A stretch of 54,875 nt of DNA from an uncultured Bacteroidales bacterium (GTDB lineage: Bacteria > Bacteroidota > Bacteroidia > Bacteroidales > P3). Under the pieces are notes generated by a model that was given only the letters and a program-made list of their open reading frames with translations, did no database searches and had not been told where the DNA came from. This document shows, piece after piece, positions 3,935 to 54,712 of this stretch. Made by a program: the position numbers and the translations under genes. The first letter of the stretch is position 1. Each line of letters begins with the position of its first letter. The stretch is from positions 1 to 54,875 of the forward strand of contig CAMJJD010000008.1 of assembly GCA_946406015.1 (NCBI GenBank). The letters are read 5' to 3'.

Positions 3935-3962
3935 CTACTTAACTACTGACTACTTAACTACT
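3935..3962. repeat. short tandem repeat overlapping the cinA 3' end
   Basis: Units of TTAACTACT recur here. The reverse complement of the same unit is repeated upstream of cinA at 5262-5312, so cinA is bracketed by inverted copies of one family. The last codons and stop of cinA fall inside this copy. Confidence 0.6.
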
Positions 3963-5251
3963 AAACGCATTAACATTGCATAGGCTTGGTTGGTGCTGCG
4001 ATCGATGTTCTGCTGTCTTCTGTTTGCACCGAACTGCAGCAGTTTGGCTTCAGTGTGTGTGGCGTCGGCGACGGCAATCCACACGGTGCCCACGGGCTTC
4101 TCCGGAGTGCCGCCGTCAGGGCCTGCGATGCCGGTGGTGGCGATGGCTAGGTCGGTGCCCATTCGCTGGCGCACGCCTTCCACCATCTCGCGTACAGTTT
4201 CTTCGCTCACGGCGCCGTGTGCCTCGAGGGTGCTGTGCTTCACGCCGAGGGCGCTTTCTTTCACCTCGTTGCTGTAGGCGATGATGCCGCCTTTGAAGTA
4301 TGCCGAGGCGCCGGCTTGGGCGGTGAGCAGACGGGCGATGTTGCCGCCCGTGCAGCTCTCGGCGGTGGCCAGCGTCAGGCCGCGCTCCGTGAGGGTCTTG
4401 TGCACCAGCTCGTCGAGCGTCTCGCAATCTTCGCCGACGATGTACTGTCCGGCAAGGTCGTACAGCCCTTCAAGTGGAAAGTGGAAAGTGGAAAGAGGAA
4501 AGTCTTTCGGTAGATGTGCCGTCAGGCGCAGCTTGGTGAGACCGGCGACAGGCAGATATGCCAGCTTGATGTTCTCCGGCAGCGACAGCTCCCACGGCTC
4601 GATGAGGTCGCTGAGGAAACTCTCGCCGATACCTTGCGTCAGGATGTTCTTGGTGATGATGATGTCGGTTTTGAAGGTCTCTTGCAATTTCGGTATCACG
4701 CGGTTGCGCATGAGCCATTCCATCTCGAATGGCACGCCGGGCAATGAGACTAAAACAGGTTGGAGGTTGGAGGTTGGAGGTCGGAACTGTGGGACGGTTT
4801 CCGACTTCCGACTTCTGACTTCCAGCTTGGATTGGAACCACATGCAGGGGGCGGTGCCGAGGTCGTTGTTCAATACCTCGCAGCACTTGGGTACCAACGC
4901 CTGTGCGCGGTTGACGGGCGTCAGTTCGTAGCCGCGGCTCTCGAAGATGCGTCTCACATTGTCCAGCGCCATCTGGTTCTCCACCAGCTCGCTGTCGAAG
5001 TATTCGCACAGCAGTTTCTTGGTGATGTCGTCTTTGGTGGGACCGAGGCCGCCGGTGACCAGCACGGCGTCGCTGTCACGCAGGGCCTCGTCGACGGCCA
5101 CCCAGATGTCTTTGTATACGTCGCCTACCACAAGGGTCTTGCAGACATCCATACCCGCTGCGGTGAGCAGTCGGCTCATCGTCGAGGCGTTGGTGTTGAC
5201 GACCTGCCCTATGAGCAGCTCGTCGCCTATGTTGATGATGGTTACATTCAT
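3950..5251 (-). CDS. cinA: CinA family protein (nicotinamide-nucleotide amidase)
   Basis: 433 residues. The N-terminal MoCF-like domain (INIGDELLIGQVVNTNAS, VLVTGGLGPTKDD) and the C-terminal amidase domain (TLATAESCTGGNIARLLT and ATTGIAGPDGGTPEKPVGTVW) are both complete. In this family the C-terminal domain hydrolyses NMN and the N-terminal one acts as an ADP-ribose pyrophosphatase. Two segments look foreign: residues about 141-166 (KLEVRSRKSETVPQFRPPTS) replace the short turn before LVSLPGVPFEME, and about 249-259 (DFPLSTFHFPL) sit before GLYDLAG. Both are encoded by repeat DNA, stay in frame, and leave motifs intact. Confidence 0.93.
   Translation of the reverse strand: MNVTIINIGDELLIGQVVNTNASTMSRLLTAAGMDVCKTLVVGDVYKDIWVAVDEALRDSDAVLVTGGLGPTKDDITKKLLCEYFDSELVENQMALDNVRRIFESRGYELTPVNRAQALVPKCCEVLNNDLGTAPCMWFQSKLEVRSRKSETVPQFRPPTSNLQPVLVSLPGVPFEMEWLMRNRVIPKLQETFKTDIIITKNILTQGIGESFLSDLIEPWELSLPENIKLAYLPVAGLTKLRLTAHLPKDFPLSTFHFPLEGLYDLAGQYIVGEDCETLDELVHKTLTERGLTLATAESCTGGNIARLLTAQAGASAYFKGGIIAYSNEVKESALGVKHSTLEAHGAVSEETVREMVEGVRQRMGTDLAIATTGIAGPDGGTPEKPVGTVWIAVADATHTEAKLLQFGANRRQQNIDRSTNQAYAMLMRLVVK
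4475..4507 (-). repeat. in-frame repeat insertion in cinA (GTGGAAA family)
   Basis: Plus-strand GTGGAAAGTGGAAAGTGGAA encodes STFHFPL on the cinA strand. The same repeat lies in frame in hydF at 6250-6282. Confidence 0.7.
4754..4831 (-). repeat. in-frame repeat insertion in cinA
   Basis: This stretch contains tandem GGAGGTTGGAGGTTGGAGGT, then CCGACTTCCGACTTCTGACT, two low-complexity arms that are partly complementary. It encodes about 26 residues where CinA proteins have only a short turn. Confidence 0.7.
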
Positions 5252-5261
5252 ATTATCTTTA

Positions 5262-5312
5262 GTAGTTAAGTAGACAGTAGTTAAGTAGACAGTAGTTAAG
5301 TAAACAGTAGTT
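5262..5312. repeat. 18-nt tandem repeat upstream of cinA
   Basis: AGTAGTTAAGTAGACAGT is repeated about three times in the space between folA and cinA. It is the inverted counterpart of the repeat at 3935-3962. Confidence 0.75.
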
Positions 5313-5345
5313 AAGGCAATACCGCAGGTATGGCCACCGTCTCGG

Positions 5346-5891
5346 CTACTGTTTGCCCATTGTTGGTTTCCTGTCGTATTCGGCGTAGGAGAATTCCAGG
5401 CCGCTCTTCTCGTCCACCATGCGTTCGGTCTCGTTGACCTTGGTGAACTCCGAGAGGTCGATGACGGGGAAGTAGGTGTCGGCTTCGGGGAAATCCTTAT
5501 GCACCCAGGTGATGTAAAGGCGGTTTGTCCACGGCATCAACATGTTGTAGATACGTCCGCCGCCGATGATGAACACCTCGTCCGAATTGAAAGTTGAAAA
5601 TTGAAAATTGAAATGCAGCAGGTCATTGATGCTGTGCACCACTTCTGCACCCTCGGGATGGAAGTCCTCGTTTTGAGAGAACACTATGTTTTGGCGTCCT
5701 GCTAGCGGGCGTTTGGGCAGGCTCTCCCATGTGCGGCGGCCCATCACCACAGGGTGTCCCATGGTTAGTGCCTTGAAGCGCTTGAGGTCGCCGCTGAGGT
5801 GCCAGGGCATGTCGCCGTTGAGGCCTATGGCGCGGTTCTCGGCCTGCGCCACTATGATGCTCAGATTTGGTTTCTTGTTAATGTCAATCAT
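5346..5891 (-). CDS. folA: dihydrofolate reductase
   Basis: 181 residues; reduces dihydrofolate to tetrahydrofolate with NADPH. Family motifs are complete: SIIVAQAENRAIGLNGDMPW with the active-site loop, LKRFKALTMGHPVVMGRRTWESLP, and VFIIGGGRIYNMLMP. Bacterial DHFRs are about 160 residues. The excess here comes partly from LHFNFQFSTFN (about residues 92-102), inserted between SINDL and DEVFIIGGG and encoded by TTGAAAATTGAAAATTG repeat DNA. The insert precedes the strand that carries the cofactor loop and leaves it intact, so I expect an active enzyme. Confidence 0.94.
   Translation of the reverse strand: MIDINKKPNLSIIVAQAENRAIGLNGDMPWHLSGDLKRFKALTMGHPVVMGRRTWESLPKRPLAGRQNIVFSQNEDFHPEGAEVVHSINDLLHFNFQFSTFNSDEVFIIGGGRIYNMLMPWTNRLYITWVHKDFPEADTYFPVIDLSEFTKVNETERMVDEKSGLEFSYAEYDRKPTMGKQ
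5583..5615 (-). repeat. in-frame repeat insertion in folA (TTGAAAA family)
   Basis: Plus-strand units of TTGAAAATTGAAAATTGAAA. The same family flanks the start of the barrel gene at 37736 and lies in its signal-peptide codons. Confidence 0.7.
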
Positions 5892-5945
5892 ATCTTTGTT
5901 TTATTCTCAATCAGAACGAAAAGAACTATCAATACTTTACTTTTG

Positions 5946-6073
5946 GAAGTTATAGAAGTTAAAGGAAGTTATCGCGCTTCGCGCTAGAAGTTAAAGACAA
6001 TACCCTCTGCAGGTAAAAGGTGCGATATGTACATTTGTCTTTAACTTCTTTAACTTCTCTAACTTCTTTAACT
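5946..6073. repeat. compound inverted repeat of 9-nt units
   Basis: The left side (5946-6000) carries several copies of GAAGTTAAA-like units and a small inner hairpin at 5983-5993. The right side (6035-6073) carries AACTTCTTT units. The 15-nt segment 5986-6000 pairs perfectly with 6035-6049, and other registers pair as well. It fills the gap between hydF and folA (about 190 bases) and probably ends hydF transcription. Confidence 0.7.
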
Positions 6074-6081
6074 ACCATAAT

Positions 6082-7215
6082 TTATTTTCCAGTAAAAACT
6101 CTTGTCGCACGTTCGAAGATGCCGCCGCACCAGGCAAGCGCAAGGCCGTAGTTGCTCACCGGCACGCCGGCTTCCAGCGCGGGCAGCAGACGGGCTTTCA
6201 CTTGCTGGGCGGTGATGACGCAGCCGCCGCATTGAATGACTAAGGAATAAGTGGAAAGTGGAAAATGGAAAGTGGAAAGAGAATCGGAACCGCCGAGGAT
6301 GTCGAACTGGAGTTCTTTGCCGGTGGCTTTGCGGAGGGCGGCGGGCAGCTTCACGCGGCCGATGTCTTCGCAGGTGACGTTGTGCGTGCAGCTCTCCAGC
6401 AGCAGCACGCGGTCGCCGTCTTTCAGGTTGCCAATCTTGCGGGTTCCTTCAAGGTATTCGGTGAAAAGTCCTTTCTGTCGGGCCAACACGACGCTGAAGC
6501 TGGTGAGCGGCACCTCGTCGGGTACTATTGTGGCCACCTGTTTGAATGCCTGGCTGTCGGTGACCACCAGCGCCGGCGGCTCCTTCAGCGCCGCCAGCGT
6601 CGAAGGCAGTTCCTCGGGTTGGCAGAAGAATGCCTGCGCGTGGATGTCCATCAGGTCGCGCAGCACCTGCACCTGCGGAAGTATCATGCGTCCTTCGGGA
6701 GCCGACGAGTCGATGGGTGTCACCAACACCACAGTATCACCTAGCGAGACAACATCTCCCAGCAGCGACCGACTGCGGTAGGCGCTCTCGGGCAGGGCTT
6801 CTTTTATCTGTGCTATCAGCGCATCTTTGTCGATGGGGGCTTTCTTTGTCAGCACCTTGAGCATCGGTGTGCCGTGCTCCGCGCACCAACGCTCCACCAT
6901 CTCTTCGGGTTCGCCATAATTGCCTTCGGTGTAGAGCAGCAGCGCCAGGTCGACTTCGGCCAAAGCGGCCATGCTTTTCTCCACTCGCATCCTGCCCAGC
7001 TCGCCCTCGTCGTCGATGCCGGCGGTGTCGATGAGCACCACAGGCCCTATGCCGCCAATCTCCATGCTCTTGCGCACGGGGTCGGTGGTGGTGCCGGCGG
7101 TGTCGCTCACGATGGCTATCTGCTGACCAGTCAGGAAGTTAATCATCGTGCTCTTGCCCACGTTCCGACGGCCGAAGAAACCAATGCGCGGCTTCAGTTC
7201 ATTTCCTTTATTCAT
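6082..7215 (-). CDS. hydF: [FeFe]-hydrogenase H-cluster maturation GTPase HydF
   Basis: 377 residues. HydF is the scaffold on which HydE and HydG build the diiron subcluster before transfer to the hydrogenase. The GTPase domain is clear: GRRNVGKST (P-loop, about 16-23), TAGTTTDPV (switch I), DTAGIDD (G3), TKKAP. The C-terminal cluster region has SCTH (C276, H278) and CGGC (C329, C332), but the residue before the first Cys is Gln328 where many HydFs have a His ligand. Residues about 312-322 (SLSTFHFPLST) are a repeat-encoded insert just before that motif. HydE, HydG and a hydrogenase are not in the window. Confidence 0.92.
   Translation of the reverse strand: MNKGNELKPRIGFFGRRNVGKSTMINFLTGQQIAIVSDTAGTTTDPVRKSMEIGGIGPVVLIDTAGIDDEGELGRMRVEKSMAALAEVDLALLLYTEGNYGEPEEMVERWCAEHGTPMLKVLTKKAPIDKDALIAQIKEALPESAYRSRSLLGDVVSLGDTVVLVTPIDSSAPEGRMILPQVQVLRDLMDIHAQAFFCQPEELPSTLAALKEPPALVVTDSQAFKQVATIVPDEVPLTSFSVVLARQKGLFTEYLEGTRKIGNLKDGDRVLLLESCTHNVTCEDIGRVKLPAALRKATGKELQFDILGGSDSLSTFHFPLSTYSLVIQCGGCVITAQQVKARLLPALEAGVPVSNYGLALAWCGGIFERATRVFTGK
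6250..6282 (-). repeat. in-frame repeat insertion in hydF (GTGGAAA family)
   Basis: Plus-strand GTGGAAAGTGGAAAATGGAA, continuing with another unit, encodes SLSTFHFPLST. It is the same unit, in the same frame, as the cinA insert at 4475-4507. Confidence 0.7.
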
Positions 7216-7327: not shown

Positions 7328-7410
7328 CGCTCCGTGCATTCTCCCTACCTTCTCCCTACCTTCTCCCTACCTCTCCTTGGCGCCCACGAAGAAAGCAGGG
7401 AGTTGGTAGG
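7328..7410. repeat. 11-nt tandem-repeat element A
   Basis: Three exact copies of TTCTCCCTACC (7339-7371) are preceded and followed by related 11-nt units. AGGGAGTTGGTAGG (7397-7410) is nearly complementary to two joined units. The block shares its layout and about 50 bases with element B near 27.2 kb. It occupies the 300-base gap between hydF and the DUF4919 gene, which shows nothing else. Confidence 0.75.
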
Positions 7411-7996: not shown

Positions 7997-10496
7997 TGCC
8001 TTCGCCGCCTAGTTCCAGCTTCTCGGGGTGGAAGGTGCGGACATCTCGGTTGGCACGCAGTTCGTCGCGGATTATCTGCATCAATATGCCGTAACCCTTG
8101 CCGTGCAAGATGCGCACTTCCTTCTCGGAAAGGAGTAGTGCTGTGTCGAGGAACTGGTGCAGTTCGGCGATGGCCTCTTCGGCTCGGTGGCCGCGCAGGT
8201 CGAGAGTGGGGTTGAATCGGGCGCGCTTCTCGTTGATGTCGTCGTAGATGCCGCGACTGACGCTCACCGCAGATTTGGCGGTGGGTATCTTCTGCTTGGC
8301 GGTGCCTTGCAGGCGGCTGAGGGGGATGGTCATGCGGATGCTGTTGCTCTCCACTACGGCTTTCTTGCCCTTGATTTCCACTACCTGCCCGTAGGTTTCT
8401 TCGCCGTCGATGCGGACGATACTCCCAACCAGAATTGGCATTTCTTTATCTCTAACCGAATTATCCGAATTAATCCGAACTTGGCTTTTTCGGTTTCTTT
8501 CGGATTGTTCGGTTAGAGCTTTGGTGTTTTGTTCGGTGGCTTCGGCCAGGCGGGCGCGGGCTTGTTGCGTGGCTTCTTTCTCGGCTTTGGCGCTCTTGAT
8601 GTCGCTGATGGTGCGCTCGACGGTGCGGTTGGCGTCGGTGAGTATCTGTTGCGCCTCGCGGCGGGCGGCGCCGACTATCTCGTGGCGACGGGCCTGCAGG
8701 TTGTCGCTCATCCGTTGGTATTTCTCGGTCACCTCGGCCAGGAATTCGTCGGCTACGCGCAGCTCCTCTTTCTTCTTTTCAATCTCTTTCTTGTCAAGCT
8801 CCAACTGCTGCAGCTGGTGCTCGAAGTTGAGCTGTTCGCGACCTACCATCTCGCCGGCTCGGTCGAGGATGTCCTTGGGGAAGCCGATGCTCTCGGCAAT
8901 CTCGAAGGCAAAGCTGGATCCGGGATGCCCCACGCTGAGGCGGTAGAGCGGCCGCATGGCGTTGGTGTCGAAGAGCATGGCGCCGTTGACGATGCCCGGC
9001 ATGCGGTCGGCCAGCAGCTTGAGGTCGGCGAAGTGGGTGGTGACGACGCCGAAGGCCCCTTTGTCGTAGAGCACCTCCAGCACAGCTTCGGCGATGGCGC
9101 AACCCGAGCGAGGCTCGGTGCCGCCACCCAACTCGTCGAGGAGGAAGAGCGTCTTTTCATCGGCTGAGCCGACGAGCGCTTTCATGTTCTGCAGGTGCGA
9201 GGTGTAGGTTGAGAGGTCGTTGTCGATGCTCTGCTGGTCGCCGATGTCGATGAAGATGGAACCGAAGAGGCCGCACTCCGAGGTGGGCCGCAACGGTACC
9301 GGCATTCCGCATTGCAGCATGTATTGTATCAAGCCTACGGCTTTGAGCAGCACCGACTTGCCGCCGGCGTTGGGGCCGGAGATGATCAATATTCTGGCCT
9401 CACCCCCGCCCCCTCTCCCAGAGGAGAGGGGAGTGGAATGTAGATTTAAGTCGAAAGGAATTACTCCTTCGAAGGAGTCTACTCCCCTCGCCTTTAGGGA
9501 GAGGGGTTGGGGGTGAGGCTGCCTTTTCTTCTGCAGGTATAGTATCGGGTGGCGGGCGTCCATCCAGTCGACGCGGGGTTCTCGGTGGAGGATGGGGACG
9601 CAGGCGTTGAGTTCTATGGCAACACGGGCTTTGGCACGCAGGAAGTCGATGCGTGCGAGGAAGTGATAGGCTTCGTCGAGTTGTGGCAGCAAGGGACGCA
9701 GCCGGTCGCTGAAGGTGAGCAGGATGCGTTGTATCTCGTGCCGTTCGTCGAAGTCGAGTTCGCGTAGGTCGTTGCCGAGTTCGACGACTTCGGCAGGTTC
9801 CACGAAAGCGGTGAGGCGTGTGGCGGACTCGTCTTGTATGAGGCCTTTTATCTTGCGTCGGTGGGTGGTGAGCAGGGGAATGACGGGACGGCCGTCGCGG
9901 ATGGTCACTTCGGCCCCCTCGGGAGCCCAACCTTCGCGCTTGGCTCGCGAAAGGGTACTGTTGACTTGAGCCTCTACCTCCGCTGCTTTGCGGGCTTTGG
10001 TGCGCCGTATCTCGGCTAGGGCGGGGGAGGCGTTGTCGTAGAGCTCGCCGTGGTCGTCGATGAGTTTCCCTAAAAGGGAGTTGATGACGTTGAGTTGCGA
10101 GCTTTTTCCGCCATAGCCTAGTTCCACCTCGATGGCGAGGTTGCGCAGGGCGGTGTATTGTTGATGCTCTTCGGCTGTGAGGAAATAGTAGCACTCGCGG
10201 ATGGTGCGGAGCGAGAGTTTCAGGTCGAACAAGCTCTCCAGAGGAATGACCGTGTTGCCGACCCGGAGGTGGGTGAGGATAGGGGTGAGGTCGATGAAGT
10301 CTTGCTGGGGAAACTCGCTCTCCATAAGTACTATCTGGCGCATCTCCTCGGTGAGTTGCAGCTCATATTGCACCTTCTCGAAGTCGGAAGAGAAACGCAT
10401 CTCGTCGGCCATGCGGGCGGCAAGGGCGTTGGTGCATTGCTCCGTCACCATCTGGCGGATGCGGTCGAAACCCAGTTTCTGTTCTATATTTTTCAT
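7974..10496 (-). CDS. mutS2: endonuclease MutS2
   Basis: 840 residues. MutS2 proteins act on recombination intermediates or collided ribosomes. Seen in order: N-terminal core, the ABC ATPase with Walker A GPNAGGKS (about 372-379), Walker B LFLLDELGGGTEP, a long coiled coil (about 510-650), a KOW-like segment (VGSIVRIDGEETYGQVVEI), and a C-terminal Smr nuclease domain (LDLRGHRAEEAI, HGKGYGIL). Normal size is about 780-830. Three repeat inserts account for the excess: two around the native strand GVIPFDLNL just before Walker A, and one at about 660-682 between coiled coil and KOW. Confidence 0.94.
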   Translation of the reverse strand: MKNIEQKLGFDRIRQMVTEQCTNALAARMADEMRFSSDFEKVQYELQLTEEMRQIVLMESEFPQQDFIDLTPILTHLRVGNTVIPLESLFDLKLSLRTIRECYYFLTAEEHQQYTALRNLAIEVELGYGGKSSQLNVINSLLGKLIDDHGELYDNASPALAEIRRTKARKAAEVEAQVNSTLSRAKREGWAPEGAEVTIRDGRPVIPLLTTHRRKIKGLIQDESATRLTAFVEPAEVVELGNDLRELDFDERHEIQRILLTFSDRLRPLLPQLDEAYHFLARIDFLRAKARVAIELNACVPILHREPRVDWMDARHPILYLQKKRQPHPQPLSLKARGVDSFEGVIPFDLNLHSTPLSSGRGGGGEARILIISGPNAGGKSVLLKAVGLIQYMLQCGMPVPLRPTSECGLFGSIFIDIGDQQSIDNDLSTYTSHLQNMKALVGSADEKTLFLLDELGGGTEPRSGCAIAEAVLEVLYDKGAFGVVTTHFADLKLLADRMPGIVNGAMLFDTNAMRPLYRLSVGHPGSSFAFEIAESIGFPKDILDRAGEMVGREQLNFEHQLQQLELDKKEIEKKKEELRVADEFLAEVTEKYQRMSDNLQARRHEIVGAARREAQQILTDANRTVERTISDIKSAKAEKEATQQARARLAEATEQNTKALTEQSERNRKSQVRINSDNSVRDKEMPILVGSIVRIDGEETYGQVVEIKGKKAVVESNSIRMTIPLSRLQGTAKQKIPTAKSAVSVSRGIYDDINEKRARFNPTLDLRGHRAEEAIAELHQFLDTALLLSEKEVRILHGKGYGILMQIIRDELRANRDVRTFHPEKLELGGEGITVVELR
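8450..8518 (-). repeat. in-frame palindromic insertion in mutS2 (CCGAAT family)
   Basis: CTCTAACCGAA (8450-8460) and TTCGGTTAGAG (8508-8518) are perfect complements. Between them lie repeats of CCGAAT/TCCGAA. The block encodes about 23 polar residues (SERNRKSQVRINSDNSVRDK) that do not belong to the family. Confidence 0.65.
9398..9519 (-). repeat. pair of inverted in-frame insertions in mutS2 (CTCACCCC family)
   Basis: Two hairpin repeats, 9398-9437 and 9478-9519, lie in opposite orientation. Each has CCCCTCTCC-type arms, and their outer ends (CCTCACCCCCGCCCC versus GGTTGGGGGTGAGG) also pair. Between them lie the native codons for GVIPFDLNL. The same family occurs between genes at 30405-30444. 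Confidence 0.8.
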
Positions 10497-10540
10497 TAAG
10501 GAGTCAAGGAGACAGGAGTTAAGGAGACAGGAGTCTGGAA
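10497..10540. repeat. short tandem repeat between nitrilase gene and mutS2
   Basis: Tandem GGAGACAGGAGTTAA units. The reverse complement, CTCCTGTCTCCTTAACTCC, recurs in the 77-nt repeat at the right end of the window. Confidence 0.65.
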
Positions 10541-10555: not shown

Positions 10556-11386
10556 TTATTTGTCGAAGTCGAGATATAGGGGCCATTTCTGGCGGAAGGT
10601 GTCGAGCTTTTCCTTGTCGAGGGTGACTGTGACGAGTTGGTCACTTCCGGCTACGGCTTCAGCCAGAGGAAAGCCTTTGTAGTCGATGAGGGCGCTGTTG
10701 CCTGTATAATTGCCCCCTACGCCATCCACCCCGCTGCGGTTGCATCCAAGCACATAGCTGAGGTTTTCGATGGCGCGGGCTTTCAGCAATGTTGTCCAAG
10801 CCTCGTGGCGGCTGCCCGGCCAGTTGGCGCAGACGAGCAGCAGGTCATACTGTAGTTTTGAATTTTGAATTTTGAATTTTGAACATGTTGCTGCCACTTC
10901 AGAATTCGACTTTCGAAATTCAACATTGTTGCGGAGCCACTTGGGGAAGCGGAGGTCGTAGCAGACGGCGGGTTTGATGCGCCATCCTTTGTATTCGAAC
11001 ACCTCGCGTTGTGTACCGCGGCTGATGATATTGTATTCGCCGCTGACGCGGAAAGTGTGGGCTTTGTCGTAGTGGCCAACGCTGCCATCGGGATAGACCC
11101 AATGCAGGCGGTTGTAGCAGCGGTCGCCCTCGCGGATAATCCATGTGCCGACGAAGAGAAAATTGTGCTTCGAAGCCATCTGGCGAGCCCATTGCAGGGT
11201 GGGTCCTTCCTGCTCTTCGGCCAGCGAGGCCATGTGGTCGCCGAAGCCGGTGGTGAATGTCTCAGGGACGACGAAGATGTCGTTCTTGGGTGCTGAAGCG
11301 AGCACCTCCTCAACGCGGCTGCGGTTGGCTTCGGCGTCGCCCCAGACGATATTCTGCTGGTAGAAGGTTATGTTCAGCTCGTTCAT
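10556..11386 (-). CDS. nitrilase-family amidase (omega-amidase-like)
   Basis: 276 residues of the carbon-nitrogen hydrolase fold. The catalytic triad is visible: Glu42 (VVPETFTTG), Lys108 (GHYDKAHTF) and Cys142 (AVCYDLRFP). The pattern best fits Nit2/YafV omega-amidases, which hydrolyse alpha-ketoglutaramate-type amides. Residues about 154-179 (VEFRKSNSEVAATCSKFKIQ) interrupt the segment that in relatives runs straight from the catalytic CYDLRFP to YDLLLVCANWP. This insert is encoded by repeat DNA matching the kamD-kamE spacer. The ATG overlaps the ribF stop by 4 nt, so the two are translationally coupled. Confidence 0.88.
   Translation of the reverse strand: MNELNITFYQQNIVWGDAEANRSRVEEVLASAPKNDIFVVPETFTTGFGDHMASLAEEQEGPTLQWARQMASKHNFLFVGTWIIREGDRCYNRLHWVYPDGSVGHYDKAHTFRVSGEYNIISRGTQREVFEYKGWRIKPAVCYDLRFPKWLRNNVEFRKSNSEVAATCSKFKIQNSKLQYDLLLVCANWPGSRHEAWTTLLKARAIENLSYVLGCNRSGVDGVGGNYTGNSALIDYKGFPLAEAVAGSDQLVTVTLDKEKLDTFRQKWPLYLDFDK
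10850..10927 (-). repeat. in-frame repeat insertion in nitrilase gene (TTCAAAA composite)
   Basis: Read on the minus strand it has AATGTTGAATTTCGAAAGT, a GC-rich middle, then repeated TTCAAAATTCAAAATTCAAA. The order and sequence parallel the spacer at 29524-29610. Confidence 0.75.
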
Positions 11387-12309: not shown

Positions 12310-13532
12310 TTCAGGCGGAAGGAAGGTTTGAAGAGGATCGAGCAGCCGAAAGAATACTGCATGCGGTGCTCGTCGGGGTAATAGTAGCCCGACACCTCGA
12401 GCCGGAGCATGCAGGGTTGGTGCCCCGAAGTCCAGATGTGCGAGGCTTTGGCGATTAGCACCTGTGTGCGGTCGAAGGTTAGGGTAGGGGTAAGCGCCGA
12501 GAGGTTGCTGAAAAGCCAGCTGCCCATCAGCGGTACGAAGTCCTTGCCGTACCAGTAGCTCAATGTTACTTGTGTTTCCGACCTTTCTCGTGGAAAGCGC
12601 ATGTTCAGCTCTGGATAGACACCCCAGCCCGATGTGAACGGAATCGCGGTGTTGCCGCGCTGGTTGTACCACATCATGCGGCAGCTGAGGTCGAAGTAGA
12701 CGTTACCTGCATCGTAGAATGCACCTAATCCTGTGGAAACGTTGAAGTTGTTGTTAATCCGGTGGCTGACCGCCATGTTTTGACCGCCTTCGTGCTGGCC
12801 GATGGCGTGGAATGGAAGGTATAGTTGCACGTCGCCCAGATATGTTTGCAATCTGCCCGACAAACCAGCCGTGAAGCGCTCGGGTACTATGCTTTGGTTC
12901 CAGATGTATTCGCGCCAGTCGACCCAAAGGTCGGCCTCGGCATGACTACCTTCGTAGGTCAGCTCCACACCCGCTTCGGGGTCGGCCACATAGAGCAGGT
13001 CGGGGTTGTAGAGCGGCAGTGGCAGCTTGTGTGTGCTGTTGCCCAAGCTTCCGAGGGTGAGTTGCAGATGTTCGTTGAAAGTTATCTTCGCCTGTAGCCA
13101 GGGCAGCAGGTGGAGGCGGTTGATGCTGTCGGTGTTCGCCGGCCAGGGATTGTTGCTCAGCAGGGTGGGGTAGTTGCGTGCTCCCCATAGGTGCAGCCAA
13201 TGGAAGCCCCCCTCGAGCGTAAAACCTTTTCCCCACAACAGTTCATGATTCTTCCACAGCACCAGTCGCGGCCTCAGAACGAAGCCCGGCAGGGTGTAGC
13301 CGCTGATGCGGTTGCCGAAGTATTCGTTGTCAATGAAGAACACCTGTCCGTCAATGTCGAGCGAAAGCCAACTGAATCCGGTGCTGTCTGCGTGGTCGGG
13401 TGCGTAGGGTGGAGTAGTGGCTGTTGCTGCAATGGGTTGGATGGGGTCAATGGATTGAATGGGTTTGGCATGGGCATTGCCCATCAAACCCATTAGAACC
13501 ATTAATCCTATTATTCCCAGCAATCGCCTCAT
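12306..13532 (-). CDS. secreted outer-membrane beta-barrel protein, unknown function
   Basis: 408 residues: signal peptide (MRRLLGIIGLMVLMGLMGNAHA), a Pro/Ile-rich linker of short repeats (PIQSIDPIQPIAATA), then alternating aromatic strands throughout, ending in GCSILFKPSFRLK, as in outer-membrane barrels. I do not recognise the family. The codons for the signal peptide and linker consist of ATGGGT/CCATT-type repeats, so repeat DNA appears to supply part of the export signal. It overlaps the TlpA-like gene upstream and ribF downstream by 4 nt each. Confidence 0.75.
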   Translation of the reverse strand: MRRLLGIIGLMVLMGLMGNAHAKPIQSIDPIQPIAATATTPPYAPDHADSTGFSWLSLDIDGQVFFIDNEYFGNRISGYTLPGFVLRPRLVLWKNHELLWGKGFTLEGGFHWLHLWGARNYPTLLSNNPWPANTDSINRLHLLPWLQAKITFNEHLQLTLGSLGNSTHKLPLPLYNPDLLYVADPEAGVELTYEGSHAEADLWVDWREYIWNQSIVPERFTAGLSGRLQTYLGDVQLYLPFHAIGQHEGGQNMAVSHRINNNFNVSTGLGAFYDAGNVYFDLSCRMMWYNQRGNTAIPFTSGWGVYPELNMRFPRERSETQVTLSYWYGKDFVPLMGSWLFSNLSALTPTLTFDRTQVLIAKASHIWTSGHQPCMLRLEVSGYYYPDEHRMQYSFGCSILFKPSFRLK

Positions 13533-14705: not shown

Positions 14706-14767
14706 ATTTCTTCGGTGTTTCTTTGGTATTTCCTCGGTATTTCCTCGGGTTTTACCGAAGAAATACC
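14706..14767. repeat. 11-nt tandem-repeat element D
   Basis: Four contiguous 11-nt units (ATTTCTTCGGT, GTTTCTTTGGT, ATTTCCTCGGT, ATTTCCTCGGG) are followed by ACCGAAGAAAT (14754-14764), the exact reverse complement of the first unit. It sits between two divergent promoters. Confidence 0.8.
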
Positions 14768-23023: not shown

Positions 23024-23097
23024 GGCCCCGTAGTTCAGCTGAATAGAACGTCGGATTCCGGTTCCGAAAGTCGTGGGTTTGAATCCCGCCGGGGTCA
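23024..23097 (+). tRNA. tRNA-Arg (anticodon CCG)
   Basis: A cloverleaf folds cleanly: acceptor GGCCCCG with CGGGGTC, D stem GTTC/GAAC, anticodon stem TCGGA/TCCGA with loop TTCCGGT (anticodon CCG), five-base variable loop, T stem GTGGG/CCCGC with loop TTTGAAT, and discriminator A. The CCA end is not encoded. Confidence 0.95.
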
Positions 23098-27197: not shown

Positions 27198-27288
27198 TTC
27201 TCCGTGCATTCTCTCTACCTTCTCTCTACCTCCTCTCTACCTGCTCCGTGGCCTCCACGGAGAAAGTACCGTGCGGGTAGTTTTTTGC
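27198..27288. repeat. 11-nt tandem-repeat element B with terminator hairpin
   Basis: Six 11-nt units run from 27198 to 27263, including two exact TTCTCTCTACC. The last units form a perfect 8-bp hairpin (27244-27251 with 27255-27262). An outer CTACC/GGGTAG pair followed by six T ends the block, so it may terminate the rng-lysozyme transcript. It is a sequence relative of element A at 7.3 kb. Confidence 0.75.
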
Positions 27289-27565: not shown

Positions 27566-27688
27566 ATTCTAGGTCTGTTCTAAGTCTGTTCCAGGGCCGT
27601 TCTAGGTCTGTTCTAGGGTCGTTCTGGGGTTTCTCCAGGTTCTCTCTGGGTTTTCTCTAGGTTCGCTCCGTGAAACCCCTAGAGAAAG
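27566..27688. repeat. 11-nt tandem-repeat element C
   Basis: Ten contiguous 11-nt units (27566-27675). The first six follow GTTCTAGGTCT and then drift to TCTCTAGGTTC. The complementary arm AACCCCTAGAGAAA follows at 27674-27687. The period is strict over 110 bases. Confidence 0.8.
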
Positions 27689-29523: not shown

Positions 29524-29610
29524 TTTCGAATGTTGAATTTCGAATGTTGAAAGGCTGCCGCAAGATGGAGACGGAAATATTCAAAATTCATAATTCAAAA
29601 TTCAAAATTA
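29524..29610. repeat. composite repeat between kamD and kamE
   Basis: TTTCGAATGTTGAA occurs twice in tandem, then a GC-rich middle, then ATTCAAAATTCATAATTCAA followed by a further copy. The same order of parts is found in frame inside the nitrilase gene (10850-10927). Confidence 0.75.
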
Positions 29611-30406: not shown

Positions 30407-30444
30407 GCCTCACCCCCAACCCCTCTCCCAAGGAGAGGGGAGTG
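30405..30444. repeat. CTCACCCC-family hairpin repeat, intergenic copy
   Basis: CCTCACCCCCAACCCCTCTC, then CCAAGGAGAGGGGAGTGG. The arms CCCCTCTCC/GGAGAGGGG pair. The same family is inserted in frame in mutS2 and in the primase-like gene. Confidence 0.8.
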
Positions 30445-37713: not shown

Positions 37714-37837
37714 ATTGAAAATTGAAAATTAAGAAATGAAGACTATGAAACAATCAATTATTCATTTATTCATCCGTTCTCGCATCGTCATCGTGTGCGT
37801 CGGCCTCGTTTTCGTTTCTCAATTTTCAATTTTCAAT
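37714..37837. repeat. inverted repeat spanning the start of the barrel gene (TTGAAAA family)
   Basis: Arm 37714-37734 and arm 37817-37837 are complementary at 20 of 21 positions. The left arm lies just before the ATG and the right arm codes for SQFSIFN in the signal peptide. In mRNA they would form a hairpin over the translation start. Confidence 0.7.
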
Positions 37838-38995
37838 AGGGTCCAGGCTCAGGAGAATGACGGCCTGATTTACCCCAACGCCATGTACGGCGCGGTCAAT
37901 GTTGGTGGTTTTGGCTATTCCCATAATGGGGAAAGCTCCTTCGGCGCCCCCTCGTTCAGCCTCGCCGGCGGTTGCTGGGTGGGCACCTCGCTGGCGGCGC
38001 AGTTGGCTGTTGACGGTGCGCTGGCCCCCAACACGGCTGGCGACAACAGCATGTTCCTCTTTACAGGTGCTGAGTTCAAGTGGGACGTCAATTCCACCTT
38101 TTTTCACATTTACAACAAGGACTTCCTTTATCCCATACCATTCTATCCTTTGGTCGGTTTGGGGCTTTCAATGTGTAACCTAGGCGATACGGCCACGGTC
38201 GACTACGCCTTCCACATGATGCTTGGCTTGCAGGTGCCTTATCGCATCAACGAGAATATCGACGCCTACCTGCAGTACAAGTGCTTCTTCTTGCGTCAGG
38301 GGTTCGACAATTCGCCGGGCGACAATTACATGCACACTTTTGGTATCGGATTGCTTTTCAGCCAGCGTCGTGATCCGTTCCACCGTCGCACCATCTTCTC
38401 CACTCGTGACAAGTCCGAAGACTGGTTTTTCGGTCTCGGTTTTGGCGCCAACTATTCGACATTCGACCTTTTCACCAATGACAACCTTGGTGGCACGACG
38501 ATGATTGGAGTGGCCCCCGAGATTATGGTGGGTCGCAACTTCAGCAACTTCTGGTCGGTGCGTCTGCAGTTGAGCGGTATCTCGGCACATGAGATGTATG
38601 ACACCGTGTGGCAACAACCGGGTCAGTCTTATCGTTTCTCCCACCTCCATGCCGATCTTATGCTCAATGTCAGCAGTCTTATCTGGCGTCAGCGGGGGGT
38701 GAAGTTCAATGTAATGCCCTATTTGGGAGCCGGTCCTGTATGGCGCTACGACAATCTGACGTTTGACGTTGGAGCCGATTTTGGCTTGTTCCTGCGTTAC
38801 TATGTCGGTCGCAAGAGTGACATCTATTTTGATGCCAAATACCTAATGGTAGCGCCCGCCATCGGTGGCGGGCGCGGTCCCTCAGGTAATTTCTATGGAG
38901 TGGGTTTGCCCAGCGTGACGGTGGGCTACATCTACAACTTTGGTCAGCACACAACGCGTTACCGCATGCCGCTGACGTCAGTTATCTCACGGTAG
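37736..38995 (+). CDS. outer-membrane beta-barrel protein, unknown function
   Basis: 419 residues. Signal peptide residues 1-38, in which SQFSIFN is encoded by repeat DNA. The mature protein has regularly spaced aromatic and Gly-rich strands (AVNVGGFGYSHNGESSFGAP, WFFGLGFGANYSTFDLF, VMPYLGAGPVWRYDNLTFDV) and ends with a barrel strand (PSVTVGYIYNF). A 22-strand-type transporter is possible but unsupported. No family assigned. Its last 14 bases overlap the rhodanese gene on the other strand. Confidence 0.75.
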   Translation: MKTMKQSIIHLFIRSRIVIVCVGLVFVSQFSIFNRVQAQENDGLIYPNAMYGAVNVGGFGYSHNGESSFGAPSFSLAGGCWVGTSLAAQLAVDGALAPNTAGDNSMFLFTGAEFKWDVNSTFFHIYNKDFLYPIPFYPLVGLGLSMCNLGDTATVDYAFHMMLGLQVPYRINENIDAYLQYKCFFLRQGFDNSPGDNYMHTFGIGLLFSQRRDPFHRRTIFSTRDKSEDWFFGLGFGANYSTFDLFTNDNLGGTTMIGVAPEIMVGRNFSNFWSVRLQLSGISAHEMYDTVWQQPGQSYRFSHLHADLMLNVSSLIWRQRGVKFNVMPYLGAGPVWRYDNLTFDVGADFGLFLRYYVGRKSDIYFDAKYLMVAPAIGGGRGPSGNFYGVGLPSVTVGYIYNFGQHTTRYRMPLTSVISR

Positions 38996-46244: not shown

Positions 46245-46465
46245 TCCAATTTTCACTTACACATTTACAAATTAGCACATTCACAAATTAGCACATTCAC
46301 ACATTAACGCATTCTCACATTGGCTCCACTTTGTCGCCGACCGCAGTTAAAGATTTCCCGCATTCTCTTTGAACCCAGAACCATTAACCATTAACCGTGA
46401 ACCATTAATCATTAACCATTACCCATTACCATTACCCATTACCATTACCCTATCCGTCAATTGGC
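46245..46465. repeat. block of short tandem repeats
   Basis: 46245-46320 repeats ATTAGCACATTCACAA-type units. 46333-46348 is the right copy of GTCGCCGACCGCAGTT. 46378-46450 repeats ACCATTAACCATTAACC and CATTACCCATTACC. No gene is seen here. Confidence 0.7.
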
Positions 46466-49623: not shown

Positions 49624-49661
49624 AACAAGAGCATTGAGCAGGGAATTAATTTATAAAAGAT

Positions 49662-51525: not shown

Positions 51526-51527
51526 AC

Positions 51528-51671
51528 TACAAGCGGACTACAGCGCACTACATTTTCAATAATAAGGCATACTTTTTAGTATGTCTTTTTTTGTTTGCAT
51601 TTCAGTCAGATGCACACATATATACTGGCAAACTACAATTACGTCACACAGTCCGTGTAGTCCATTGTAGG
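51528..51671. repeat. inverted GGACTACA-type repeats around the terminator
   Basis: GACTACAAGCGGACTACAGC at 51533-51552 and, in reverse, GTCCGTGTAGTCCATTGTAG at 51651-51670. The two sides are imperfect complements that enclose the terminator. Confidence 0.5.
51566..51593 (+). terminator. intrinsic terminator of the two-gene module
   Basis: GGCATACT (51566-51573) pairs with AGTATGTC (51578-51585), followed by a run of T. Confidence 0.75.
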
Positions 51672-51694
51672 CTCAAAAAAATGTTGCATCTTTG
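51664..51694 (+). promoter_or_regulatory. promoter of the mobile-element block
   Basis: TTG at 51665-51667 and CATCTTTG at 51687-51694, 19 nt apart; the -7 box differs from consensus at the first base. It precedes a structured leader. Confidence 0.45.
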
Positions 51695-51700
51695 CACCGA

Positions 51701-51807
51701 ATTCACTACCGGACAAAAGCTGAGCACGGCTCCGGGCACGGGATGAAAAACGCCTTTCTATATCATCGTGCATGTGCCAGAAGGCATTTTAATACCATTA
51801 ATAAGAA
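51701..51807 (+). ncRNA. structured 5' leader with a possible pseudoknot
   Basis: Three helices can be drawn: CCGGA/TCCGG (51709-51713 with 51731-51735); GGCAC/GTGCC plus GATGA/TCATC (51735-51746 with 51763-51778); and AAAACGCCTTTCT/AGAAGGCATTTT (51747-51759 with 51779-51790). The left side of the third helix lies in the loop of the second, the layout of an H-type pseudoknot. It ends 18 nt before the start codon. Confidence 0.5.
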
Positions 51808-52203
51808 ATGAACAAGGTATTTAAATGCAACAGTAAGGCAGGTTCAAAGAAATCGAACAACCCTCGCCGGCGTAACAACAATACCGACCTCTGCGTCGAC
51901 CTGAAAACCCGTCTCCGCCACGACCGCATCGCGGTAATCGGAAAGAACTATCCCGGCGTGCTTAGGCGCGACGAGGAGTGCCACTACACTTTCACCGAGA
52001 CCGCCAACGCGGACAAGCGCAACCCGCGGGTCTTCGAAGGCAAATGCATCACGGTCACCCGTAGGGATGACGGGACGCTGCGCCTGAACTTCCGTCCCGT
52101 GACGATGGGAGCGGACTTCAACGCCGCCACCTACGCCACCGACGTGGCCAACGAAATCCTCTGGGCCCTCACAAGCCTCCTAGGGAAGGAGGCGAGGAAG
52201 TAA
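51808..52203 (+). CDS. small basic protein of a mobile-element block
   Basis: 131 residues. The N-terminal 28 are Lys/Arg/Asn-rich (KAGSKKSNNPRRRNNN) and likely disordered or DNA-binding. The rest is a compact beta domain (CHYTFTETANADKRNPRVFEGKC starts it) ending in a helix (ATDVANEILWALTSLLGK). Family not recognised. It precedes the DUF3987-like and primase-like genes. The return to high GC here marks a different origin from the RM-module region. Confidence 0.65.
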   Translation: MNKVFKCNSKAGSKKSNNPRRRNNNTDLCVDLKTRLRHDRIAVIGKNYPGVLRRDEECHYTFTETANADKRNPRVFEGKCITVTRRDDGTLRLNFRPVTMGADFNAATYATDVANEILWALTSLLGKEARK

Positions 52204-52228
52204 ACCGGTCGCGGAGGATGCGTTCCTT

Positions 52229-52359
52229 GTTCCGCGTTCCAATTAGAAAACAAGTTGTGAAATACCCCTTTTAAGAGTTTATAAATACTTAATATATAAG
52301 TAGATATATAGATAATAGGAGAATTGGAATACTCGAAAAAATTAATTGGAACGCGGAAC
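52229..52359. repeat. 17-bp inverted repeat around an AT-rich core, origin-like
   Basis: GTTCCGCGTTCCAATTA (52229-52245) and its perfect complement (52343-52359) enclose about 100 AT-rich bases. The right arm continues as tandem CGGAACG units. It lies directly upstream of the replication-type genes. Confidence 0.6.
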
Positions 52360-52406
52360 GCGGAACGCCCGCAGCCACCATCTATTCACTAAAAAGCATA
52401 ACGACA

Positions 52407-53711
52407 ATGAGATACGACATTAGTAAACCGTCGGCACCTGCGATGCCGGCTTTAGGAAAGGGCACAGAATGTATACGTCTGCTGCTCACGCAGGCCTCGA
52501 AAGATATGTATGAACCCCTCGTGCCGATGTTCTTCCCCGTACTGGGCGCACACCTCAGCGGCGCAGAATTCCAGTACCCCGACCTCAGTTGGAAGGAGCC
52601 GACGGGCATGATGGCCAACCTGGTGGGCGATTCGGGCTGCAACAAGGGCCAGCTGACGAACCTCGTGGAGGCCATCTGCCGCGACTTCCGCCAGCACGAC
52701 GAGGCTGAGCTAAGGAAACTCGTCGAATGGTCGAAACAGGTCAAGACAAAGAGCGCCAACAAGGAGAAACCCGCGCGTCCGGAAGTGGCTATCTGGTTCC
52801 CGCCCTCGGACACCACACGTCCGGCATTCATCCAGAACGCAATGGCGCTGGAGAATCTGGGCGGCCGCACGCAATACCTGAATATGCCCGAGGTGGAGAT
52901 GGCCGACGGCATGTGCGGCGGACACAAGCAGGTGTCGCAGATGCTGCGCAACATCTACGACCGCCAGCGGGCCGGCGCCCTGCGTGCCACGGCCGACGGC
53001 GTCACCGGCAACCCCATCCTGCGCGCCAACCTGACGCTCTCGGCCACACCCGTGTCGGCCCGCAAGTTCTACAAGAACGACCTCTTCAACGGCACCTTCG
53101 GCCGCATGGTCTTCTCCTACAAGGCCCGCGCCAGCCGCGACGGCCGCATCCCCCGCCAGGGGCGCTACAACGACGAGTTCTACCGCAAGCTTGACGAGTT
53201 CCTTGCGCGGCTCGATATCTGCAAGGGGCGCTTCATCGTCCGTCCGCTCAACAAGCTGACCGACAAGCTTGCCGCCGACATGGCGTCGCTGGCCGACCTG
53301 GCCGACGACGACGTGCTGTGGGATTGCTCCAAGCGCGCCCTCATGTCGGCTTGGAAGGCGGGCTGCATCATGTGGGCACTCAACGGTCAGACGTGGACAC
53401 GCTCCATGGGCGACGTGGTGGAATGGCTCGTCTACCGCGACCTCTGGAGCAAGATGCAGCTCTTCGCCGACCTGCTGGGCAAGGATGCCGACCCGATGGG
53501 CGATGCAGAGCGGCGCGGACCGAAGATTATGCTCGACAGCCTCCCCACCACCTTCAACGAGGCACAGCTCGAAGCACTCCGTCTGGAGCTCGGCAAGAGC
53601 AAGGAGGGTACCGGCAGCCAGCTGCGCAAATGGGTGTACCGCAAGTTCATCACCCACAACACGCAGACGGGACTTTACACGAAAACCGAAGAATACCTTA
53701 ACCGCAAATGA
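52407..53711 (+). CDS. DUF3987-like mobile-element protein with degenerate P-loop
   Basis: 434 residues. The region NLVGDSGCNKGQLTNLVEAI (about 72-91) has the shape of a Walker A loop but lacks the usual GK[ST]: the sequence is GCNKGQ. RPEVAIWFPPSDTTRPAFIQ and LRANLTLSATPVSARKFYK resemble DUF3987 proteins of Bacteroidales mobile elements, which are related to primase-helicases. ATPase activity is therefore uncertain. The stop overlaps the primase-like start by 4 nt. Confidence 0.7.
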   Translation: MRYDISKPSAPAMPALGKGTECIRLLLTQASKDMYEPLVPMFFPVLGAHLSGAEFQYPDLSWKEPTGMMANLVGDSGCNKGQLTNLVEAICRDFRQHDEAELRKLVEWSKQVKTKSANKEKPARPEVAIWFPPSDTTRPAFIQNAMALENLGGRTQYLNMPEVEMADGMCGGHKQVSQMLRNIYDRQRAGALRATADGVTGNPILRANLTLSATPVSARKFYKNDLFNGTFGRMVFSYKARASRDGRIPRQGRYNDEFYRKLDEFLARLDICKGRFIVRPLNKLTDKLAADMASLADLADDDVLWDCSKRALMSAWKAGCIMWALNGQTWTRSMGDVVEWLVYRDLWSKMQLFADLLGKDADPMGDAERRGPKIMLDSLPTTFNEAQLEALRLELGKSKEGTGSQLRKWVYRKFITHNTQTGLYTKTEEYLNRK

Positions 53712-54712
53712 TTATGGACAATCAACAGCTACAACAGCTCCGCGACCTCCCCATCGAGGGGGTCGCGGAGCGGCTGGGGCTCGAGGTCGTGCGCCACAAG
53801 GCCCTCTGCCCCTTCCACAACGACCACCACCCCTCTTTGTCGTTCAACGTGCGCAAGAACACCTTCCGCTGCTTCGTCTGCGACGCCCACGGCGGCACCC
53901 TCGACCTCGTCATGCGGACGCTGCACAAGGACTTCCGCGAAGCCTGCGAGTGGCTAAGCCTCACCCCCCTGACCCCCTCTCCAAGGGGCGAGGGGGGAGC
54001 CGACGGGCAACATGCTTGTTTCAATGCCAGCCGGTATGAACGCTACTTCGAGCGCCCCTGGCTGAGCGATGCGGCGCGGCGGTTCCTCTTCGACGAGCGG
54101 CGGCTCGACCCGCGCGTGGTGCGCTGGTGCCGCCTCACCTCGTGGCGCGACCGCAACGGCGTCGAATGGCTCCAGATTCCCTACTACGACCGCGACGGCC
54201 ATCTCACCGGCATCCAGAACCGCAACCTGAGCCTCACCCCCCATCACCCCTCTCCAGGAAAGAGAGGGGGAGCAGACAGCCAACCGCTCTCAGGTGAGGC
54301 CAGTCACCCCTCTCCAATCGGAGAGGGACCGGGGGTGAGGCCACCCCGCTTCCGCTTCCCGCAAGGCTCCCGTTGCGGCATCTACAACCTGCCCGTCCTC
54401 AACCGCCTCCGCGACGGCGAACCCCTCTGGATTGCCGAAGGCGCCTCCGACTGCTGGGCCCTCCTCTCCGCCGGCCACAAGGCCATCGCCATCCCCTCCG
54501 CCACACTATTAAAGAAGAATGACCTGCAACCACTCTTAACTCTTAACTCAGAACTCTTAACTGAATTCCACATGGCTCCCGACCGCGACCTCCCCGGCGA
54601 GCGCCTCTTCCTCCAGCTGCAGCAGCTCCTGCCCAACCTCCAGCACCACCAGCTGCCACCCGGATGCAAGGACTACAGCGACTACTATCTTATATTAAGA
54701 ATTAAGAATTAA
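53708..54712 (+). CDS. CHC2 zinc-finger, Toprim-like primase protein with repeat inserts
   Basis: 334 residues. The CHC2 zinc ribbon is complete: Cys34, His37, Cys55, Cys58 (LCPFHNDHHPSLSF, FRCFVCDAHG). A Toprim-like start follows (PLWIAEGASDCWALLSAGHK). Likely primes replication of a mobile element. Three CTCACCCC-family repeats are in frame: about residues 84-99 (LTPLTPSPRGEGGADG), 174-190 and 195-212, plus LLTLNSELLTE near 277. The last codons (LILRIKN) and stop fall within a TTAAGAAT repeat, so the C-terminus may be truncated. It still reads openly. Confidence 0.8.
   Translation: MIMDNQQLQQLRDLPIEGVAERLGLEVVRHKALCPFHNDHHPSLSFNVRKNTFRCFVCDAHGGTLDLVMRTLHKDFREACEWLSLTPLTPSPRGEGGADGQHACFNASRYERYFERPWLSDAARRFLFDERRLDPRVVRWCRLTSWRDRNGVEWLQIPYYDRDGHLTGIQNRNLSLTPHHPSPGKRGGADSQPLSGEASHPSPIGEGPGVRPPRFRFPQGSRCGIYNLPVLNRLRDGEPLWIAEGASDCWALLSAGHKAIAIPSATLLKKNDLQPLLTLNSELLTEFHMAPDRDLPGERLFLQLQQLLPNLQHHQLPPGCKDYSDYYLILRIKN
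53958..54003 (+). repeat. in-frame CTCACCCC-family repeat in the primase-like gene, first
   Basis: CCCCTCTCC and GGGGCGAGGGG arms around AA. Encodes PLTPSPRGEGGA. Confidence 0.75.
54231..54342 (+). repeat. in-frame CTCACCCC-family repeat pair in the primase-like gene
   Basis: Two hairpin copies (54231-54273 and 54294-54342) in opposite orientation. The outer ends GCCTCACCCC and GGGGTGAGGC are perfect complements, so the pair also forms one large hairpin, as in mutS2. Confidence 0.8.

Follow-up and report, generated by a model that had tools for sequence, protein, structure and literature searches.

Heptamer repeat arrays in frame within conserved enzyme genes of uncultured Bacteroidales

Repeats within six conserved genes

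Contig CAMJJD010000008.1 of an uncultured Bacteroidales bacterium (54,875 nt, here referred to as the window) carries short repeats in frame within six conserved genes, namely cinA, folA, hydF, mutS2, a nitrilase gene and a primase-like gene. The principal element is a heptamer array of about 31 nt with about 4.4 copies of one word, and it occurs in many sequence families; hairpin elements are present as well. The arrays are probably discrete elements copied within genomes from existing arrays, with copies that break the frame or the fold purged by selection. Repeat DNA becomes protein sequence repeatedly, and at shared codons, in conserved enzymes of gut bacteria. An initial annotation, made from the window alone, had claimed in-frame repeats in these six genes. 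All six were confirmed, with relatives that either lacked the segment or carried another one at the site; the interpretation as a whole was partly supported.

The source assembly comprises 2.2 Mb in 124 contigs and is 80.6% complete, the window being its contig C8. The genome itself is named G000, genomes of relatives G001, G002 and so on, and individual loci, mostly of relatives, carry L numbers. Relatives were found via MutS2 in Bacteroidales and Bacteroidetes assemblies, many of them from rumen or gut samples. The 38 loci share as minimum common block the region from the gene at 13529 through mutS2, and many extend to hydF, folA and cinA. Genome-scale samples covered 760 kb of G000 (634 genes) and 775 kb of G002 (618 genes). 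The dozens of close relatives represent natural replicates, and the origin of heptamer repeats thereby becomes directly testable. The repeats within the six genes are as follows (aa, amino acids).

4757-4823, minus strand: cinA site 1, GAAGTCG-type array, 13-nt core and inverted CCTCCAA array; peptide QSKLEVRSRKSETVPQFRPPTSNLQP following GTAPCMWF
4472-4503, minus strand: cinA site 2, TTTCCAC array; peptide PLSTFHFPL, standing where the native stretch sits
5585-5613, minus strand: folA, TTTCAAT/TTTCAAC array replacing a native FxLLRDSDE-type stretch, net +4 aa
6249-6279, minus strand: hydF, TTTCCAC array, peptide SLSTFHFPLSTY (alignment of 32 sequences)
9398-9518, minus strand: mutS2, two CTCACCCC...CCCTCTCC hairpins, an inverted pair around a core; fold -75.8 kcal/mol
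10856-10919 (left limit approximate), minus strand: nitrilase gene, TTCAAAA array (10856-10883) whose inverted left part is degenerate; 22 aa
about 53957-53998 (limits approximate), plus strand: primase-like gene site 1, CTCACCCC hairpin (SLTPLTPSPRGEGG)
54231-54341, plus strand: primase-like gene site 2, inverted CTCACCCC hairpin pair; fold -67.9 kcal/mol
54532-54562, plus strand: primase-like gene site 3, ACTCTTA array, peptide PLLTLNSELLT; similar peptide in L244
54694-54731, plus strand: ATTAAGA array, within which the primase-like open reading frame (ORF) terminates

At the hydF site, 18 of the 32 sequences had the native form GGQSPLPxDLSxYA or one near to it. The other 14 were each exactly 3 aa longer; 13 of them were recognisable arrays and one, in L044, had decayed, with partial decay also in L043. 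These longer forms consisted of about four heptamers in a common register with differing words from at least six families (TTTCCAC, ATTCCTC, CCACTAC-type, CTCTCCA/G, TTCAAAA and TCATCAC). Most of the 14 had the left flank FDILAG or similar in common, and the array-bearing alleles were scattered across the species tree. No array was present in the one sequence from another genus that was compared (L227), nor in the distant sequences of the same genus. L235 carried 8 extra residues which were not an array.

In FolA the peptide LHFNFQFSTFNSDE was found in G000 only (1 of 30 sequences), the others having FxxLKDCDDE or similar at this position. The structures of FolA and CinA are predictions, and both models are folded. 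For FolA the mean predicted local distance difference test score (pLDDT) was 83.2, and about 62 in the array region (residues 91-100).

CinA was aligned with 22 further sequences of the same genus and 7 from other genera. At site 1, immediately after GTAPCMWF, the 26 residues of G000 derive from two heptamer arrays. The same site held a GTGGAAA-type insert in G007 (degenerate in G010), a TTCAAAA-type insert in G001 and CTCACCCC hairpins in G004 and G012. Other sequences of the genus mostly had a short turn, a few a longer stretch with no obvious array, and the insert was missing from all 7 sequences of other genera. In the predicted model (mean pLDDT 81.2, predicted template modelling score 0.60) residues 143-158 of site 1 scored below 50 and had no secondary structure. 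Site 2 was occupied in relatives by TTTCCAC as well, by 9-mer arrays, by CACTCCT or TCTCACC, or by native sequence, which appears to be helical in longer homologues. In length the array forms roughly equal the native form of outgroups, L069 and L056 (24 residues in G000 compared with 25 in the long native outgroup form, over the stretch compared), and they exceed the short form of eight relatives by 6 residues. Here, the array has probably replaced native residues.

The nitrilase site had a short form, e.g. WLRNDNMxYDLL, in 29 of 39 sequences; its repeat words were TTCAAAA (G000, L064), TCACTCA (L067), CACTTAA-type (L100) and CTCCGAA-type (L111). One region of MutS2 held CTCACCCC in G000, L055 and L064 and ACTAGTTCA 9-mers in L039, L052 and L054. 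At site 2 of the primase-like gene 32-33 aa were missing in L243 and L244, and L242 had a shorter, different stretch.

The initial annotation assumed that the added residues replace a short surface turn. This agrees with cinA site 1, nitrilase, mutS2 and primase site 2. It does not describe folA and hydF, where native residues are lost for a small net gain, and probably not cinA site 2, whose length is close to that of the long native form. Judged from the alignments, the array often overwrites native codons, which is more than insertion into a turn alone. The frame was kept in everything examined, as proposed: among 294 orthologs of ten genes at the 38 loci no split gene was seen, i.e. no second ORF of at least 60 aa scoring above 60 bits.

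Arrays within genes at the genome scale

Interior period-7 arrays were present in 29 of 634 predicted genes of G000 and in 70 of 618 of G002. Among 112 period-7 arrays of any location in G000, 53 were intergenic, 21 lay across a gene end and 38 were interior; for the 259 arrays of G002 the numbers were 98, 64 and 97. Ten array-bearing genes of G000 were scanned against NCBIfam. MetG, HemW and RsgA passed a curated cut-off. NAD kinase, AroB, a peptidylprolyl isomerase and an MtaB-like methylthiotransferase matched strongly under equivalog cut-offs, the last being above the MiaB/RimO subfamily cut-off. Weaker matches were a sugar kinase, a serine protease and an AraC-type regulator. An 878-aa gene of G002 (C1 251845-254478), presumably encoding an alanyl-tRNA synthetase by the look of its sequence, carried three heptamer arrays.

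In G002, 18 of the 97 in-gene arrays begin within the first 40 aa. Of 14 such starts inspected, about 12 were signal-peptide-like by eye, with the array in the hydrophobic core (FFNFQFSIFNSVSAQ etc.). The window has a similar layout:

37819-37837, plus strand: TCAATTT array in the signal-peptide-like start (VSQFSIFN) of gene 37736-38995

The sequence TGCGTCAGC precedes the array in signal-peptide-like starts of G002 (C1 60013, C1 176507, C3 57734), and a TGCGTCGGC version of it stands ahead of the array in the window (37796-37837). It is also found between paired intergenic arrays of G002.

For 336 ortholog pairs of G000 and G002, repeat words were present in 21 of 85 unique in-gene inserts of at least 6 aa (16 by periodicity alone); of 1700 control segments, 78 held them (52 by this criterion alone). 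Array sites were compared with their orthologs in 34 cases, among which some sites enter twice, once from each genome; 5 of 39 rows had been set aside as conserved coding repeats of 14 or 21 nt. Arrays usually cover 10-12 aa, yet the net change was at most 4 aa in 19 cases; 13 added 6 to 18 aa and two were shorter, by 5 and 12. Furthermore, the aligned site of the ortholog held another array in 9 of the 34 comparisons (5 distinct sites) versus 12 of 640 control segments.

Families differ between species

The initial annotation had named at least four families at once; we found more than four, varying by species. A genome-wide search as it suggested gave 33 GTGGAAA dimers in G000 compared to 1 for the reversed control. 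Of about 1170 possible classes, the six commonest accounted for 68% of in-gene arrays in G000 and for 66% in G002. Exact 14-mers of six families were then counted on both strands of 18 genomes, named here by their loci. TTCAAAA occurred 71 times in L064 and at most 17 times in the others, TTTCCAC from 2 to 94 times across genomes, and CCACTAC 52 times in L043, 44 in L065 and at most 13 elsewhere. CTCTCCR reached 140 in L117 (1 to 55 in others), TCATCAC 256 in L067 and 60 in L117 (at most 6 in others) and CATTCCTMATTCCT 30 in L067 and 21 in L064 (at most 10 in others).

Length, phase and frame of the arrays

The length distribution of period-7 arrays has its peak at 30-32 nt, which takes in 35 of 153 arrays in G000, 90 of 324 in G002 and 51 of 144 in 39 near-relative loci. 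The peak also appears in 41 far loci, which hold only 44 arrays. The length mode is alike inside and outside genes. Period 5 gave 0-1 arrays per set and period 6 gave 9-21; periods 8, 9, 10 and 11 were present, and under a stricter threshold no arrays of periods 4-6 were left. The phases at which arrays begin and end are not uniform: the pooled chi2 was 336 in G002, with a maximum of 164 in 5000 uniform draws, and 136.6 in G000, with a maximum of 122.3. An example of a preferred end phase is AATTGAAAATTGAAAATTGAAAATTGAAAATT in G002. In addition, internal variants of G002 arrays recurred at the matching unit of unlinked copies 123 times (null 73.9, standard deviation 7.9, maximum 101 of 300). 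Together, the length peak, the end phases and the shared variants of G002 favour copying of the whole element over slippage.

Translated, tandem TTTCAAC, TTTCCAC, TTCAAAA, TCATCAC and CCTCCGA each give one circular heptapeptide across all three frames. A stop-free array is therefore tolerated in any frame, provided that the net length is 3n. This suggests a simple rule for repeats that genes can absorb, i.e. stop-free with a period prime to three. On the coding strand, 33 of 38 in-gene arrays of G000 and 71 of 97 of G002 had a consensus unit free of stops; outside genes or at gene ends, 37 of 74 and 96 of 162 arrays had a stop-free unit on one strand or both.

Of the heptamer arrays, 10% in G000 had an inverted partner no more than 150 nt away (null 1%), and 22% in G002 (null 4%). 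As a candidate common core motif, GCGTCAGC and GCTACGCA were enriched beside G002 arrays (14 versus 1.75 and 13 versus 0.67 expected, 518 flanks). Most motif hits lay away from arrays, however: no more than 24 of 175 (G002) and 6 of 129 (G000) were within 45 nt of one, overlapping hits being taken separately, and the motif was therefore dropped as a defining part.

Origin of the arrays

We consider it likely that the heptamer elements are copied within genomes from existing arrays and then sorted by selection. New copies would be made from resident arrays and placed into or over other sites, including occupied ones; the ortholog sites that hold another array are evidence for such reuse. The copying step would most likely be template switching or short-homology conversion during replication or repair. 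Selection would retain copies of net 3n length at tolerant positions, and an array already in a gene might be converted in place to the currently abundant family with the frame untouched. The CTCACCCC and GTAGGGAC hairpins would follow a separate REP-like route (REP, repetitive extragenic palindrome). The active dispersal proposed by the initial annotation agrees with the length peak, the end phases and the species-specific families, which point to dispersal within genomes. A firm link between the repeats and the single IS200-like transposase of G000 was not found.

Genomes tend to be rich in the family that their hydF site carries (P 0.0003, or 0.0032 once three dimers are deducted to allow for the array itself; 12 bearers, 6 families, 20,000 relabellings). 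Left out were L044, with its decayed array, and L069, an uncounted near twin of L117. Several points weigh against our reading. These P values ignore phylogeny, and two bearers, L058 (3) and L040 (1), are out of step with their own genome counts. L067 carries CATTCCT in hydF even though TCATCAC is far more common in that genome. The reversed TTTCCAC control reached 113 in L115 and 72 in L065; in some genomes such controls run high, as reversal turns the word into a different repeat family of that genome. In-gene arrays are less frequent than the coding share of 88% given by the gene calls, for which our own codon-usage predictor was used. The shared-variant test gave no signal in G000 (8 versus 8.2), where copies are far fewer than in G002. 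Among the loci, of which the closest are about 90% identical, no empty/filled pair was close enough to read junctions or target duplications; the pairs L044/L045 and L062/L112 were too diverged and had few clean repeat indels. Conversion in place rests on the register and the mostly shared left flank of hydF. This link is not strict, since L071 has an array beside a native-type flank and L216 has FDILGG beside a native loop. Independent insertion at one tolerant codon would yield an identical register as well.

A bolder version of this scheme is tentative and in our opinion doubtful. It assumes a dedicated or strongly biased copying process that rewrites resident arrays in place, in essential genes too, with arrays following the abundant family. 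Period 7 would persist for its frame independence, and the arrays would represent a frame-blind mobile coding sequence across the genus. If true, protein segments and signal peptides would be rewritten throughout a genus.

Alternatively, all families might be REP- or REPIN-like (REPIN, inverted REP pair forming a hairpin) and be moved by an IS200-type tyrosine transposase (REP-associated tyrosine transposase, RAYT). The hairpin elements are in favour of this. Of the 9 CTCACCCC hairpins in the G000 sample 8 lay within genes, and G002 had 1; single copies exist, and all three close pairs of G000 were inverted. In G000, G002 and the 38 loci the palindrome was followed by GTAG in 6 of 27 cases, GCAG in 5, GTGG in 4 and none of these in 12. 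GTAG recalls the tag of REPs (PMC3733652). GTAGGGAC palindromes were found in hydF of L064 and in one G000 gene. Within HydF of L064 the GTAGGGACGCGGCGTGCCGCGTCC inverted repeat (alignment columns about 126-149) is coding in frame, and a GTAGGGACACAGCGTGCTGTGTCC form occurs in a G000 gene. The transposase domain Y1_Tnp is encoded by one gene in G000 and by at least one in 31 of 41 genomes.

This single Y1_Tnp (IS200-like) gene of G000 (C40; L190, about 540-1400) lies amid GCCGGGGGCGATGYCCCCG and CCCCTGCAGGGG-like palindromes, with a AGGAGATAAGGAGAC-type repeat about 120 nt ahead of the match. These palindromes and this repeat are possibly the terminal repeats of the gene itself. Near position 1584 of L190 a TTTCAAC array lies within the gene downstream, which by its sequence looks like a folK-type gene. 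Against transposition of all families by a RAYT, neither the CTCACCCC nor the GTAGGGAC word was found within the 6 kb around this gene, and of seven Y1_Tnp loci of the same genus that were searched for both, six had none and L145 had one GTAGGGAC. Genomes G008, G009 and G019 (88, 95 and 81% complete) gave no Y1_Tnp match, yet of their matched loci L063 carries 3 and L057 carries 4 heptamer arrays (L042 none). Most heptamer arrays, furthermore, have no inverted partner. A RAYT origin of all families therefore appears unlikely.

We regard it as quite unlikely that the in-gene segments are old, static repeats which spread chiefly as alleles between species via whole-gene homologous recombination. 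The scattered hydF alleles with their mostly common left flank would fit. L040 and L045, distant on the tree, are identical over 78 nt of hydF, the CCACTAC array included; gene exchange thus accounts for part of the pattern, a further point against our reading. However, the word at the site varies by species and tends to follow the family abundant in the genome, and the folA array is confined to one sequence.

Local slippage, in which a native heptamer would have expanded at its own site and lengths that break the frame been purged, is also quite unlikely. Slippage typically yields tandem units, variants within arrays and some very long arrays, all of which were seen, and the G000 variant test is consistent with it. 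Against it, the lengths are peaked rather than decaying, end phases are preferred and periods 4-6 are without arrays at the stricter threshold. Moreover, the same few families turn up at unlinked genes and go with genome-wide abundance, and a single 7-nt step within a gene is a frameshift. An assembly or binning artefact is hardly conceivable: the relatives are metagenome assemblies and repeats terminate contigs, as at the end of the window, but matching sites and lengths occur in assemblies from several projects and split genes were not seen.

Other repeats of the window

Further repeats are listed below; where no strand is given, none was assigned.

5261-5315: AGTAGTTAAGTAGAC array adjoining the cinA start
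5948-6073: intergenic hairpin with repeat arms AGAAGTTA / TCTTTAACT in the folA-hydF gap; fold of 5925-6075, -46.6 kcal/mol
10499-10535: AGGAGTCAAGGAGAC array immediately upstream of mutS2
29579-29609: intergenic TTCAAAA array, 31 nt
30408-30440, plus strand: intergenic CTCACCCC hairpin
46379-46447: AACCATT array
54732-54875: 77-nt module (TTGTCTTATCTCCTTATCTCCTGTCTCC...) in almost two copies, with which the contig ends; the genome sample has comparable stretches at other places
7339-7372, 14707-14748, 27209-27246 and 27567-27617: period-11 arrays

Only 1 of 37 (G000) and 3 of 49 (G002) period-11 arrays lay inside genes, and 30% and 39%, respectively, had an inverted partner (nulls 5% and 3%). 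Since they avoid genes and are often paired in inversion, they represent a separate hairpin class. Intergenic tracts of G000 C5 (about 26-32 kb and 45-49 kb) consist nearly entirely of 7- and 8-nt words, e.g. AAGAGTCG. The CCGAAT palindromes named by the initial annotation were not recovered: no ATTCGG/CCGAAT pair lies within 30 nt in the window, although arrays with TTCCGA do exist. The Rfam scan of the window gave a tRNA at 23024-23097 only.

Comparison with known systems

Short tandemly repeated repetitive (STRR) sequences of cyanobacteria are tandem heptamer repeats, and the small dispersed repeats (SDR) of Nostoc are very short dispersed elements like those described here. The arrays resemble STRR in having tandem 7-nt units in several families per genome.

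The hairpins CTCACCCC and GTAGGGAC, by sequence, look REP/REPIN-like. Intragenic GTAG/CGTC REPs, palindromes of 20-40 bp ending on one side in GTAG or CGTC, and REPINs are on record (PMC3733652, PMC3116915); in two Xanthomonas, recB carries different REPs at nearly one position (PMC3733652). As far as these sources describe them, the likeness lies in short palindromes in frame within genes and, for CTCACCCC, in inverted pairs that form hairpins (3 of 3 close G000 pairs; folds). The tag agrees in part, GTAG following 6 of 27 CTCACCCC elements. The differences are that no CTCACCCC word lies in the 6-kb neighbourhood of the sole G000 Y1_Tnp gene, and that heptamer arrays are not palindromes.

Rickettsia palindromic elements are long stem-loops of 105-146 bp fused in frame into conserved proteins (PMC2229807). 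The likeness drawn by the initial annotation stands as a working one, as both are repeats in frame within conserved protein genes. It does not extend to structure: the heptamer arrays of about 31 nt are mostly not palindromes, an inverted partner being present in 10-22%. The hairpin pairs of mutS2 and the primase-like gene, at 110-121 nt, were set beside the Rickettsia elements by length.

Heptamer repeats in Bacteroidetes, intragenic REPs and the Rickettsia elements are thus already known. In the open-access (PMC) literature, a scope that most subscription papers fall outside, we found no description of in-gene heptamer arrays in Bacteroidales. Apparently undescribed are the element of about 31 nt with preferred end phases, the overwriting of native codons and the exchange of families at shared codons across relatives. 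Among the closest known systems are the TAACTGA heptamers of Beggiatoaceae, Cyanobacteria and some Bacteroidetes (PMC4679880). They are mostly intergenic and, like the arrays here, tandem, strain-specific and in part located in ORFs; one orientation has stops in all frames. Their copies in ORFs are there mainly at ORF ends or in hypothetical proteins, whereas many of those found here are internal to conserved enzymes. The present arrays differ further in their length peak at about 31 nt, their preferred end phases, the large number of families in the genus and the differing words that species carry at a single codon position.

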